A stretch of DNA of 64,000 bases from Chloroflexus aggregans DSM 9485 (lineage in GTDB: Bacteria; Chloroflexota; Chloroflexia; Chloroflexales; Chloroflexaceae): NCBI RefSeq assembly GCF_000021945.1, contig NC_011831.1:496001-560000 (forward strand). Reading direction: 5' to 3'. Position 1 is the first letter of the stretch, and every line of letters begins with the position of its first letter. The notes under the pieces are model-generated. The model saw only the letters and a list, made by a program, of their open reading frames with translations. It was not told the DNA's origin and searched no databases. A program made the translations under genes and the position numbers. Below, piece by piece: positions 3,456 to 7,820 of the stretch.

Positions 3456-4301
3456 CTATCCCTTGACACCGCCAACTGTCAAACCGGATACGAGGAACCG
3501 CTGGAGCATCAAGAAGACAATGATCGTTGGGAGAATGATAAGCAAACCACCGGCAGCAAAATTACCCCACGGCACACTCTGGCTATTTGCCAGACTGAAC
3601 AAACCGGGCACGACCAGCTTCATAGTATCAGGCGCGGGTACTAACACCGACGCGAAGATGAAATCACCCCAACCGGCCAGAAAACCGAGCAAGGCCGTTA
3701 CTGCTAAGGCTGGACGGGCCAAAGGCAATGCAATGAGGATAAATGATTGAACCGGACCACAGCCGTCGATCATGGCTGCCTCTTCCAGCTCAATCGGAAT
3801 GGTATCGAAATACCCCTTCATGTTCCACGTACTAAAGACCAACGTACTCGTCGTATAGGCAAGGATCAACCCCTCGTGCTTACCGTACAAGCCAAGCGCC
3901 GTCAGCAACTGAGCAACCGCCACCAAACTTAACACGCCGGGAAAGGTCTGGATCGCCAACAGCAAAATCAGAGCAAACTCTCGCCCATAAAACTTAAACC
4001 GCGAAAACGCAAACGCCGCCGATGTCGTAATCACCAACGAGGCAACCGTTGTCACACCGGCTACATACAAGCTATTGCGCAACCACGTCAACAGTGGTCG
4101 GTCAAAGATCATCGCCCGATAATTCTCGAACGTCCACTCAGTGGGCAAAAACATACCAAGCAGATTCAAGGTATAGAGCCGGTCTCCGGCACGGCCTGAA
4201 GCAAGGAAGGCAAACCAGAGCGGGTAGACGGCGAACAGCACGCCGAGAATTAAAATGGTGTACTGCAACACCAAGACCGGTCGAGTAGGTTTGCGGATCA
4301 T
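3456..4301 (-). CDS. Sugar ABC transporter permease, MalG type
   Basis: A 281-residue inner-membrane permease with six predicted helices. The cytoplasmic EAA loop, which docks the ATPase, is visible at about residues 171-190 (ELEEAAMIDGCG then LPLARPAL). The conserved C-terminal end of MalG-type proteins (VSGLTVGGVKG) is intact. It overlaps the upstream MalF-type gene by four bases, so the two are translationally coupled. No ATP-binding subunit is encoded here; such importers often share a general MsmK/UgpC-like ATPase encoded elsewhere. Specificity is probably an oligosaccharide or maltodextrin, inferred from subunit type only. Confidence 0.92.
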   Translation of the reverse strand: MIRKPTRPVLVLQYTILILGVLFAVYPLWFAFLASGRAGDRLYTLNLLGMFLPTEWTFENYRAMIFDRPLLTWLRNSLYVAGVTTVASLVITTSAAFAFSRFKFYGREFALILLLAIQTFPGVLSLVAVAQLLTALGLYGKHEGLILAYTTSTLVFSTWNMKGYFDTIPIELEEAAMIDGCGPVQSFILIALPLARPALAVTALLGFLAGWGDFIFASVLVPAPDTMKLVVPGLFSLANSQSVPWGNFAAGGLLIILPTIIVFLMLQRFLVSGLTVGGVKG

Positions 4302-5518
4302 GACTCGTAGGCCCCTTTCGTGATGCGCGTCAGCCGCAGGCTATAGAGGGTCGCTGTGAATAGGAAGATAAAGAGGATCACAGCGAAAGCCGTCGCATTA
4401 CCATAATTTTGGGTTTGGAAGATCTGCTTGTAGGCGTAGACGATCACAAACTCGGTTGCGCCGGGTCGCCCCACTTCATTCACCGGCCCACCTTGGGTAA
4501 TAGCCCACACGGTGCCGAACATTTGAAAAGCCGTAATGGACGTCAGCACCGTTGCCGGTAATACAGCCGGGCGAATCAGCGGCAACGTGATCTGGGTAAG
4601 CTGTTGCCACCACGACGCCCCATCCAGCTCGGCAGCCTCATAGACATCGCGTGGTACGGCTTGCAATGCACCGAGAATGACGATCATGAAGAAGGGGTAG
4701 GAGAACCACGTGTCAACCAGTACGACGATCAAAAACGCACTTAACGGATCACGTAGCCACGCCGGACCGGCAATACCAAAGAGCGCCAAAACCTGGTTGA
4801 TCGTCCCTTGCTCACGGAAGAAGAACTGCCAGATCAGCGCCATCAGAATAGCAAGCGATGAAGCTGCCCACGGCACAAACAACATCACTCGGAAGAAGGT
4901 ACGCCCCGGTAAATAATCACTATTCAAAATGAGGGCAAAGGTGAGACCGAGCAAGAAACTGAACGGCACACGAGCAATCACGAAAAGAAGGGTACGGAAA
5001 ACAACCACCACAAAATCGCCGGTGCGCATGAGCGTATCGTAGGCTTGGGCCACATTGACCACCGCAGCCAAGATAAAACCCAATACCAGAGCACCCAGCC
5101 ACACCACCGACGTTGACACCGGCGGCTCCATCATCTGGTTCAGGCGACGGTTGATGAACGTTGCTGCAATGAGCGGCACAAAACAGAGAAAAATAGCCGC
5201 CATCGCTCCCAACGCTTCTGGGGTAAAGAGGTTACCGATCAGGTTTGCATAATTAGCGAAAATCGGGTCTTGTAATCGATATGGCTGCCCCAAACCGACC
5301 GGTGCAGACGTGCGAAATTGCGGCCAACACAATGGATCGAGAATGCCGGTCAGAAATACGTTACAATCGGGATTCGGACGAAATCGATTACGATTGGTAA
5401 ACGAAGTATAGACGCTGAGTAGAATGGGATAGATATTAAACAGCAGAATACCGATAATCGTGGGGCCGGTAAAGAGCAGAACGGTGAGCGCCTTGCGGCG
5501 TTTGGACCACGACACCAT
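4298..5518 (-). CDS. Sugar ABC transporter permease, MalF type
   Basis: A roughly 406-residue permease. One helix lies near residues 15-38, followed by a periplasm-side insert of about 65 residues, then seven or so further helices. The EAA loop is at about residues 295-314 (VYEAAELDGASWWQQ then LPLIRP). The binding-protein-dependent permease core is complete. An in-frame ATG two codons upstream (5524) is possible, but the GAGG ribosome site is better placed for 5518. It works with the MalG-type permease and the binding lipoprotein encoded upstream; an 11-bp hairpin separates it from the lipoprotein gene. Confidence 0.9.
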   Translation of the reverse strand: MVSWSKRRKALTVLLFTGPTIIGILLFNIYPILLSVYTSFTNRNRFRPNPDCNVFLTGILDPLCWPQFRTSAPVGLGQPYRLQDPIFANYANLIGNLFTPEALGAMAAIFLCFVPLIAATFINRRLNQMMEPPVSTSVVWLGALVLGFILAAVVNVAQAYDTLMRTGDFVVVVFRTLLFVIARVPFSFLLGLTFALILNSDYLPGRTFFRVMLFVPWAASSLAILMALIWQFFFREQGTINQVLALFGIAGPAWLRDPLSAFLIVVLVDTWFSYPFFMIVILGALQAVPRDVYEAAELDGASWWQQLTQITLPLIRPAVLPATVLTSITAFQMFGTVWAITQGGPVNEVGRPGATEFVIVYAYKQIFQTQNYGNATAFAVILFIFLFTATLYSLRLTRITKGAYES

Positions 5519-5637
5519 GGGCATTACCTCACTGCAAGCAGCCAGAACCTTATCGGTCGGTAGCCGGGCGCCCGACCAGCAGTTATCTCGACAACAATCC
5601 GAACTGATGCACGCAGGAACGATGACGATACAAACAT

Positions 5638-5664
5638 GGGGGTGAGTATTCGTTACTCACCCCC
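5638..5664 (-). terminator. Hairpin between binding-protein and permease genes (attenuator)
   Basis: A perfect 11-bp stem (arms 5638-5648 and 5654-5664) with a 5-base loop sits 8 bases after the lipoprotein stop codon. No long T tract follows on the minus strand. Such hairpins commonly protect the binding-protein mRNA and reduce read-through into the permease genes, giving excess binding protein. Confidence 0.75.
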
Positions 5665-5672
5665 TCTAGCAT

Positions 5673-6959
5673 CTACTTCATCTGCATGATGGCTTCTTCA
5701 ATCGCTTTAGCAGCGGCAGCTAGCGCATCAGCAGGCGTCTGCGCACCGGTCCAAATCGCAACGCTGGCCTCACCCACCGGACCCCACTGGGCCGAAGCGT
5801 AAGGTGTATTCGCCATCGGTACACCCGCATTCAGGGCAGCACCAAACCCGGCCAGGGTCGGAAGGGCAGCCACCTCTGGATTCTTGAGTGCAGCCGTCGC
5901 CGCCGGCACCGTCTTGTTGGTCAGCGCCAGTTTGGTCTGCACCTCCGCACTGGTGAAGTACTTCATAATGTCCAACGCGACCTCGGCATTGCCACGCTCA
6001 ACCGCGTTGCGGGTCAGCATCAAGGTCTTGATACCGACGAAGGGCTTGCCCAACGGCAGAATACCGTAATCAACGCCATCCTGCTCGATACCGGCAATCG
6101 CCCACGGGCCGGTCCACCACATGGCAGCCTTACCCTCGGCCAATGCTGCCTTGCAGATATCGTAGCTCTGCTCGCTGAACGAGACTTTGCTCATCGCGGC
6201 CAGCCACTCACCGCCCTTGATCATCTCCGGCGTATTGACGTAGACATTGCCCTGATCGTCCACGTAGCTCGGCACGCCATACCCGAAGTAGATCGGAGCG
6301 ACGTGATAAGCATCGTTCCCACCGAATCCCTGATTGCAGACAAGCGTCTTATCAGGGTTCTCAGCGCGGAACTTCGTCGCCATTTCCAGCAGCTCATCGA
6401 GGTTGGTCGGCAACTGCATGTCACCAATGACGGCCTTGTTGTAGATCAAGGCAATACCTTCCTGCGTCTCCGGCAACGCCCAGATCTTGCCCTGCCAGAT
6501 GACGCCATTCACAGCCGCCGGCTCGTAGGTGCTGCGCAGGAATTCTTCGGTGATCCCATAATCGTTGAGCGCGACGATGTTACCCACCAGCGCCTGCTGG
6601 CCGATCTGGTCGTTGGCCCAACCGATAATATCGGGACCTTCACCGGCCGGGATGGCCACATTGAGCGCGTTGCTCACATCTTCCGGCTTCGAGAGGTCGA
6701 TCTTGACATTCGGGTGAGCAGCCTCGTAATCACGGAACGCTTGCTCGATTGCGGTCAGGTAGGCACCATCCCACTGGTGCCAAATCTTAATCGTCACCTG
6801 TTGGGCAGCAGGCGCAGTAGTCGGTTGCTCCGCCGGCGCAGTAGTCGGTTGCTCCGCCGGCGCAGTAGTCGGTTGTGCGGTTTGACCACCGCCACATGCC
6901 GCAAGCATCATGGCTACGGCGAGAAACATAGCGATCAGGGCACTCTTCATTGCTTTCAC
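5673..6959 (-). CDS. Sugar-binding lipoprotein of ABC transporter (MalE-like, family 1)
   Basis: A 428-residue extracellular solute-binding protein. A lipoprotein signal peptide ends in the lipobox MLAAC, so Cys22 is the lipid anchor. A flexible linker of three near-identical PTTAPAEQ units (residues about 29-52) tethers the binding domain. The mature domain starts at VTIKIWHQWDG and has typical family-1 motifs. The start is GTG at 6959, seven bases after AAAGGAG; an ATG three codons later lacks this spacing. First gene of the importer operon, preceded by a strong promoter and a structured leader. Substrate is probably an oligosaccharide; not determinable from sequence. Confidence 0.92.
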   Translation of the reverse strand: MKAMKSALIAMFLAVAMMLAACGGGQTAQPTTAPAEQPTTAPAEQPTTAPAAQQVTIKIWHQWDGAYLTAIEQAFRDYEAAHPNVKIDLSKPEDVSNALNVAIPAGEGPDIIGWANDQIGQQALVGNIVALNDYGITEEFLRSTYEPAAVNGVIWQGKIWALPETQEGIALIYNKAVIGDMQLPTNLDELLEMATKFRAENPDKTLVCNQGFGGNDAYHVAPIYFGYGVPSYVDDQGNVYVNTPEMIKGGEWLAAMSKVSFSEQSYDICKAALAEGKAAMWWTGPWAIAGIEQDGVDYGILPLGKPFVGIKTLMLTRNAVERGNAEVALDIMKYFTSAEVQTKLALTNKTVPAATAALKNPEVAALPTLAGFGAALNAGVPMANTPYASAQWGPVGEASVAIWTGAQTPADALAAAAKAIEEAIMQMK

Positions 6960-7116
6960 AGTTATACTCCTTTACGGTGTCTACACTGACAGCAGTACTG
7001 GGGAAGGACAATTTGTTCCGAGTGAGCGAACAGAATCCCGACGAACGTTACGGTTGATCGTCTGCGTGCCACCTCCTTCCTACCTATCATCTATGCGATA
7101 GAGCACGGCGAGCAAC

Positions 7117-7203
7117 GTAGGGAACGGCAATAAGGGTTGAGGCACTGCTTGAGATGAATCGGCAGTGTTTTTCAGATGTGAAGTATCTGCACCCGTTCCC
7201 TAC
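7117..7203 (-). promoter_or_regulatory. Predicted three-way-junction RNA in the transporter leader
   Basis: Within the long 5' leader an 11-bp perfect stem (arms 7193-7203 and 7117-7127) closes an 87-nt element. Inside are two further hairpins: P2 with 5-bp arms (7185-7189 / 7173-7177) and a 7-nt loop, and P3 with 6-bp arms (7162-7167 / 7143-7148) and a 13-nt loop. A GGGT next to P1 could alternatively pair with an ACCC after P3. The layout resembles a compact three-way-junction riboswitch, but I recognise no known class. Ligand and function are unknown. Confidence 0.5.
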
Positions 7204-7265
7204 ACTTGCATCGGGCGAGAATAGTTTTGCTAGACATTGTTTTACTTACAACCTTTTCATTCACA

Positions 7266-7294
7266 ACTATACACCATCACCGCGGCCCTGTCAA
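7266..7294 (-). promoter_or_regulatory. Strong sigma-70-type promoter of the sugar transporter operon
   Basis: On the minus strand TTGACA (7294-7289) is followed by exactly 17 bases and TATAGT (7271-7266). Transcription would begin near 7259, leaving a leader of about 300 nt before the GTG at 6959. A second TATAAT lies upstream near 7309-7314 without a good -35. Confidence 0.75.
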
Positions 7295-7540
7295 GTGATC
7301 ACATGCAATTATACCGCAGCGTAAAGATAGCGAGAGAAAGAGTAAAGAGCAGAGTTGTTCTGACCAGTACGCGAGGAGCTTACTACTGAAGATACAAAGA
7401 GTTCATGGGCGAGCTTCCGTCTGGGCATCCGTGCCTACGCAATGACAAGAGGGCACGCGACGGTCGATGCACGCGCGTGCGGTTCGTGTGTCCAACCTAC
7501 GGTCAGTTCGCCCACAGCACCGTCTCTATAAGTAAACCCT

Positions 7541-7820
7541 TGTCATTTCGAGCGTCGCGAGCAAGCTTCCCCATCCCCCCTGACCTTTCGAGCGGCGCGC
7601 GAAATCTTACCCGCCCCCCTGTCCTTTCGAGCGGCGCGCGAAATCTTACCCGCCCCCCCCCTGTCCTTTCGAGCGTCGCGAGACATCTTCCCCGCCCCCC
7701 TGTCCTTTCGAGCGGCGTGAGCAAGCTTCCCCGCCCCCCCTGTCCTTTCGAGCGGCGCGAGAAATCTTCCCCGTTCTCCCTGTCCTTTCGAGCGGCGCGA
7801 GCAAGCTTAACCCGTCCCCG
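7541..7820. repeat. Seven tandem copies of a 39-42 bp repeat
   Basis: Seven units start at 7541, 7581, 7620, 7662, 7701, 7741 and 7781. Each has the frame TGTCCTTTCGAGCGGCGCGA, then either GAAATCTT or GCAAGCTT, then a C-rich tract of variable length. Unit 1 has the form TGTCATTTCGAGCG, resembling a dispersed intergenic repeat seen in many bacterial genomes. Length varies only in the C tract, pointing to slippage. The units are contiguous with no unique spacers, so this is not a CRISPR array. Confidence 0.9.

Follow-up and report, generated by a model that had tools for sequence, protein, structure and literature searches.

A 64,000-nucleotide stretch of Chloroflexus aggregans DSM 9485 (contig NC_011831.1, positions 496,001 to 560,000; hereafter the window) holds on its minus strand the leader that precedes a MalEFG-type sugar-importer operon, whose genes encode, in order, a sugar-binding protein (SBP), a MalF-like permease and a MalG-like permease. 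An initial annotation, made from the letters of the window, had placed within this leader a three-way junction RNA with an 11-bp perfect closing stem and two inner hairpins, and had suggested that it might be a sugar-responsive riboswitch of a new class. We find that the closing stem is evolutionarily real, that by the evidence presented here the leader is not a riboswitch, and that the more interesting element is a conserved, apparently untranslated Shine–Dalgarno sequence (hereafter the orphan site) lying between the stem and the SBP gene. The elements concerned, in the order of transcription, are as follows.

7266..7294, minus strand: promoter TTGACA-17-TATAGT, 11 of 12 matches, with hexamers identical in all eight Chloroflexus species
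7193..7203, minus strand: 5′ arm of the closing stem, with the sequence GTAGGGAACGG and an extension, GCAA, at 7209-7206
7128..7192, minus strand: enclosed region, forming two hairpins here in a layout that is not conserved
7117..7127, minus strand: 3′ arm of the closing stem, with the sequence CCGTTCCCTAC and an extension, TTGC, at 7115-7112
7070..7078, minus strand: orphan Shine–Dalgarno sequence, AAGGAGGTG, 119 nt before the SBP start codon
6967..6973, minus strand: the SBP gene's own Shine–Dalgarno sequence, AAAGGAG, 7 nt before GTG
5673..6959, minus strand: SBP, MalE-like (Pfam SBP_bac_8 / SBP_bac_1), start codon GTG at 6959
5638..5664, minus strand: perfect 11-bp stem-loop just past the SBP stop codon, found by folding
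4298..5524, minus strand: MalF-like permease, below the NCBIfam equivalog cut-off
3456..4301, minus strand: MalG-like permease, below the NCBIfam equivalog cut-off

Because both permeases score below these cut-offs, any assignment of the transported sugar is tentative. Two fusion constructs head the list of solved structures that match the SBP, and the best matches below them are maltodextrin- and maltose-binding proteins.

Folding of the transcribed strand confirmed the 11-bp stem (7203-7193 with 7127-7117) and the two hairpins that it encloses. The minus strand of 7117-7203 folds at −29.5 kcal/mol with a z score of −4.38 (0 of 200 shuffles equally low), and the plus strand also folds (z −4.63). 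The 271-nt leader as a whole has ordinary stability, with a z score of −1.04 and 32 of 200 shuffles equally low. As the stretch had been chosen by eye and the whole leader is not unusually stable, conservation is a better test of the stem than its folding z score. Within 6900-7400, the promoter listed above is the sole promoter-like site (0.4 expected from shuffles), and its spacer is 17 nt in seven Chloroflexus species and 18 nt in one. A transcript start is therefore expected near 7259, upstream of the stem and not downstream of 7117, giving a leader of approximately 300 nt with the stem beginning approximately 56 nt into it.

The SBP gene is present in all eight Chloroflexus genomes searched (our own included), with protein identities of 92 to 95% in the other seven, and the eight leaders are strongly diverged between a conserved 5′ block and a conserved AAAGGAGG sequence. 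The minimum-energy fold pairs both ends of the stem stretch in seven of the eight species; in the eighth (G048), the stem was found by duplex calculation instead. Individual z scores for the stretch range from −0.82 to −5.49. When each 5′ arm was combined with each 3′ arm across the eight species, the own-species assignment had the lowest energy of all 40,320, and it was again the lowest, of 720, after the close trio G048/G020/G035 had been reduced to a single member (six lineages). Five control region pairs subjected to the same arm swap ranked 586, 15,661, 32,283, 34,846, and 38,109 of 40,320; the pair at 586 dropped to 177 of 720 once the set was cut to six lineages. From a plain MAFFT alignment, RNAalifold returned 11 consensus pairs in two helices, 6 of them changed on both sides, and 88% of the stem cells were paired vs 26 to 64% after sliding by one to three columns. 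Some measures count against the stem: taken one by one, four of the eight species find their best partner in their own 3′ arm, the RNAalifold covariation term is only −0.08, and shuffles reach the five alignment measures in 17, 19, 40, 42, and 127 of 500 cases, so that alignment-based support is moderate. Together, these data indicate that the closing stem is evolutionarily real, the arm swap supporting it strongly and the individual columns moderately. The proposal of a structured leader downstream of a good promoter and ahead of a sugar-importer operon was thus borne out, with the closing stem kept in eight Chloroflexus species.

Conservation does not extend to the inside of the stem. The enclosed region, which forms two separate hairpins in the window, varies between Chloroflexus species in both the number and the sequence of its hairpins, and 11 of 162 alignment columns are invariant. 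The expectation that the stems would be kept in related leaders therefore held for the closing stem, which pairs despite sequence change in the eight species, and failed for the inner layout; the three-way junction as a conserved element is not supported. Neither of the two outcomes named in advance as refuting the annotation, stems without conservation in related leaders or a transcript start downstream of 7117, was seen. The most conserved sequences of the leader are a promoter-proximal block, the gene's own start region, and the orphan Shine–Dalgarno sequence. A search at the DNA level of 60 genomes of the order matched, beyond our own genome, the promoter-proximal block and nothing else, in six sister species; the stem was not found outside Chloroflexus in this search. 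In an Oscillochloris homologue (L025), approximately 47 nt separate TATAAT from the orphan site (by eye), which leaves no room for the stem.

These observations bear on the proposal that the stem closes a sugar-binding riboswitch. A co-varying stem in a sugar-importer leader is what such an RNA might offer, and a short CARAYNC stretch past the 5′ arm is readable in all eight alignment rows. The region where an aptamer should show a conserved core is the least conserved part, however, so a ligand pocket fits poorly, and nothing matched at the DNA level outside the genus. With cmscan at the gathering score, the whole window gave no Rfam family (Rfam release 15), in agreement with the annotation, which had recognized no known RNA class; at up to E 5, the region 6900-7330 gave one match, to a snoRNA family, at 18.3 bits against a gathering score of 37. 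No terminator-like site follows the stem on the minus strand in the region searched (6900-7400). We therefore regard a sugar-responsive riboswitch as very improbable. Other identities were also set aside. A resemblance to a T-box, GGAGGTGG, was seen by eye and is unsupported by cmscan. A mobile palindromic element was rejected, as a 211-base query matches once in our own genome (4.68 Mb, a single contig) and each species has a different stem sequence at this place.

The orphan site, by comparison with the stem, reaches beyond the genus. At least 8 nt of AAAGGAGGTGATC were found in 21 of 24 close homologues of the SBP gene, 73 to 137 nt upstream of their start, and in 13 of the 16 outside Chloroflexus. 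The homologue set, delimited by similarity and not by a tree, comprises the 8 Chloroflexus genes and 16 others, whose records bear the labels Chloroflexales, Oscillochloris, Anaerolineae and relatives, or Chloroflexi; L033, L036, and L042 stand outside the count (short upstream DNA, or not a close homologue). The reversed motif was found in 1 of the 24, and 300 shuffled motifs averaged 0.53, the highest single motif reaching 18. Complementarity to the 3′ end of 16S rRNA, which in our own genome was recognized by eye in L052 and L057, extends over 9 nt in the window and over 8 to 12 nt in 20 further homologues. PMC10783764 gives AAAGGAGG as the Shine–Dalgarno sequence of Chloroflexia and Anaerolineae.

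Among 45 window genes tested, the SBP gene alone has such an orphan site. Genome-wide, there are 15 exact copies of the 10-mer AAAGGAGGTG and one of its reversed control. By reading, six occurrences are ordinary pre-start sites, three run antisense (two to 16S 3′ ends and one to a long reading frame), and one was not placed (L043); the others (L044, L045, L049, L053, and L054) lie 71 to 98 nt before genes, mostly with a Shine–Dalgarno sequence of their own, and three of these five genes encode binding proteins. At L045 and L053, the 10-mer stands 98 and 71 nt, respectively, before genes for membrane and secreted proteins that are not binding-protein-like, and other exported proteins may share the feature. 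When binding-protein families were searched across the genome, 6 of 17 SBP_bac_1, 2 of 3 Peripla_BP_4, and 1 of 7 SBP_bac_5 genes carried 8 nt or more of the site, in total 9 of 27, vs 0 of 44 other window genes (Fisher p 6e-5); this contrast could be inflated, because some of the controls do not stand at the head of an operon. Gene starts were picked by script, and some are clearly internal (binding proteins L066, L071, L073, and L144; LacI-like genes L133-L135 and L137). Six LacI-like genes, several with internal starts, were not used as controls; L148 is without a start, and L075, L076, L131, and L138-L140 are outside the counts. Three of the binding-protein genes with orphan sites (L059, L065, and L067) adjoin L137, L135, and L134, which are Peripla_BP_4 matches and LacI-like by reading. 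At L059, the orphan site is followed at normal spacing by ATG ATC TGA, a two-codon frame (by eye).

The orphan site seems, as a rule, not to lead into a reading frame. Start codons 4 to 12 nt past it were present in 2 of 22 homologues (L024 and L041, without the site, being left out of the start-codon and pairing counts) vs 7.9 expected by sliding; within 3 to 13 nt, they were present in 4 of 24, all TTG and opening frames of 7 to 13 codons. Given this scarcity, translation from the orphan site was rejected as a general feature. We also found no fixed pairing partner for the site in the homologues, the predicted partners being spread from −55 to +87; this speaks against its being one half of a switch, which was likewise rejected, and further against a riboswitch. 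On its other side, the SBP cistron is bounded by the stem-loop past the stop codon, which was seen in every one of the 13 homologues folded, a selection from the 24, and varies in sequence by species. All eight Chloroflexus genomes have a gene above the cut-off of TIGR00649, which we take to be the RNase J family model. For three distant homologues whose promoters are strong, a transcript start 38 to 39 nt upstream of the orphan site is predicted. A small hairpin, CTGTCGTC..GACACAG in most Chloroflexus species, was seen by eye at 7010-6967, just before the gene's own Shine–Dalgarno sequence.

Untranslated Shine–Dalgarno sequences that stabilize mRNA are known mainly from Bacillus, the STAB-SD of Bacillus thuringiensis cry3A having reportedly been described by Agaisse and Lereclus in 1996. 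In cry3A, according to PMC4113751, 30S subunits bind an untranslated Shine–Dalgarno sequence close to the 5′ end at −129, and RNase J1 is blocked there. The same anatomy here suggests the same working, and we tentatively favor, at somewhat less than an even chance, a reading in which the orphan site acts as a STAB-SD-like mRNA stabilizer that favors the binding-protein cistron. By this analogy, 30S subunits would bind the orphan site without translating, and the bound subunit would block the 5′-to-3′ exonuclease RNase J as in cry3A, guarding the SBP segment of the mRNA from its 5′ side. The post-stop stem-loop would guard the 3′ end of the segment or thin transcription into the permease genes, and the mRNA segment for the binding protein would outnumber that for the permeases. 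In Chloroflexus, the stem would contribute a further element, structural or for processing, ahead of this block. A structural role suits the stem, which could act as a spacer, protect the RNA, or offer a cleavage site: it has retained its pairing but not its sequence, and its place is downstream of the transcript start and upstream of the orphan site. In a broader form, which we consider possible and rather doubtful, this would be a phylum-wide device: a non-translating 30S site and a post-stop stem-loop would bracket the binding-protein cistron of ABC sugar importers in Chloroflexota, segmental stability would set the excess of binding protein over permease, and the stem added in Chloroflexus, quick to evolve in sequence while keeping its pairing, would meter the entry of the 5′ exonuclease.

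Several results weigh against the STAB-SD-like reading. Three of the 24 homologues (L024, L025, and L041) lack 8 nt of the site. Among the best-scoring SBP_bac_1 genes of the phylum, it was found at 4 of 29 usable loci (L102, L110, L111, and L124; L100 was dropped, its contig being cut), and the site therefore belongs to this homologue group and several paralogues, not to all binding proteins. An ATG stands just 2 nt past it in L030, L031, L034, and L039; that of L030 is in frame with the SBP gene, and the other three open frames of 27, 27, and 39 codons, so that translation from the site may occur in these four. The site is predicted to be mostly paired in 17 of 22 leaders, which is ill-suited to 30S binding. 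In Chloroflexus, it lies 165 to 198 nt from the predicted start (six of eight species), so that a STAB-SD would need an earlier cleavage of the transcript. Finally, a promoter with 11 of 12 matches was found in just 3 of the 14 non-Chloroflexus homologues given.

The main rival to stabilization is ribosome standby, in which the orphan site would load 30S while the gene's own Shine–Dalgarno sequence is structured and hand it over on opening, affecting initiation and not decay. Consistent with standby, the own site is predicted to be largely paired in several Chloroflexus leaders (unpaired probability 0.03 to 0.05 in L019-L022), and the spacing between the two sites is fairly constant in the genus, at 114 to 126 nt. 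In contrast, the own site is predicted to be open in L030 (0.68), L035 (0.83), and L038 (0.93), where standby would be unneeded, and the orphan site is itself often predicted to be paired. We consider standby unlikely.

Further conserved elements lie at and upstream of the predicted transcript start.

7308..7318, minus strand: second −10-like element, TGCGGTATAAT, preceding the main promoter and shared without change by all eight Chloroflexus leaders
7216..7260, minus strand: conserved promoter-proximal block, which with the −10 box holds operator-like inverted repeats
7172..7237, minus strand: possible upstream open reading frame (ORF) of 21 codons, weakly supported, with its ATG present in all eight species

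The −10-like element at 7318-7308 is perhaps a second promoter. By eye, GCGGTATAATT in Oscillochloris L025 resembles it. Imperfect direct repeats with units like CTGTCCTTTCGAGCGGCGCGAG..CTTCCCCGCCCCC were read at 7540-7820, just upstream of the promoter region.

The inverted repeats TAGTTGT..ACAACTA and TTGTA..ACAA span the −10 box and the first 45 nt (7271-7216), and the ACAACTA arm is intact in seven of the eight Chloroflexus species, the window alone having AAAACTA. Their retention in the eight species, with this one arm changed, would suit regulation at the DNA level, in which a repressor binds the repeats while the stem and orphan site play no active part. LacI-like genes (by eye) adjoin three other importers of the genome, and PMC4052901 mentions LacI-type sugar regulators of Chloroflexus. 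A repressor would leave the kept pairing of the stem and the kept orphan site unexplained, however, and a genome search with the promoter-proximal motif at up to three mismatches was no better than its control (31 places vs 29 for the reversed motif). We judge regulation by a repressor alone improbable. The one place with a single mismatch (L078) looks by eye like coding sequence.

The upstream ORF raises the further alternative of leader-peptide attenuation, with a ribosome translating from 7237 opening the 5′ arm and its pausing deciding the downstream structure. The ATG lies in the conserved block in all eight species, and the frame runs into or towards the 5′ arm. The ORF varies from 11 to 45 codons across these species (21, 25, 25, 21, 45, 25, 23, and 11), however, with indels shifting the frame; no Shine–Dalgarno sequence stands at normal spacing before it (by eye), and an operator would also explain the conserved bases. 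Attenuation thus appears quite improbable.

If the STAB-SD-like reading is correct, the retention of such a site at one gene across Chloroflexota and its presence before several further binding-protein genes of this genome would point to an old way of setting the ratios of importer subunits, and a perfect Shine–Dalgarno sequence would not necessarily mark the start of a gene. A literature search found no report of such an orphan site in Chloroflexota, subscription papers being mostly outside its reach, and in the accessible part of PMC10783764, STAB-SD appears only in the references. The stem, for its part, is an example of a real, co-varying leader RNA that resembles a riboswitch without its other signs.

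Compared with known systems, the leader resembles the riboswitches of Rfam in having a multi-helix RNA ahead of a transporter operon, and differs from them in having no conserved core and no family match. At ribosome standby sites, 30S binds upstream of a structured start site. Such binding is also proposed here, whereas the own start looks open in some homologues and the orphan site, unlike a generic single-stranded stretch, complements the 16S 3′ end almost perfectly. Intergenic stem-loops of the malE-malF type, which follow a binding-protein gene, are thought to favor the binding protein; the stem-loop described here likewise lies between the binding-protein and permease genes, with a sequence that varies by species and a role that we infer. 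With the STAB-SD of cry3A, finally, the importer shares a long leader and a promoter further upstream. It differs in that the site is kept at a sugar-binding-protein gene across Chloroflexota, and in that a co-varying stem precedes it in Chloroflexus and a stem-loop follows the cistron, an arrangement that may stabilize the binding-protein segment of the mRNA.
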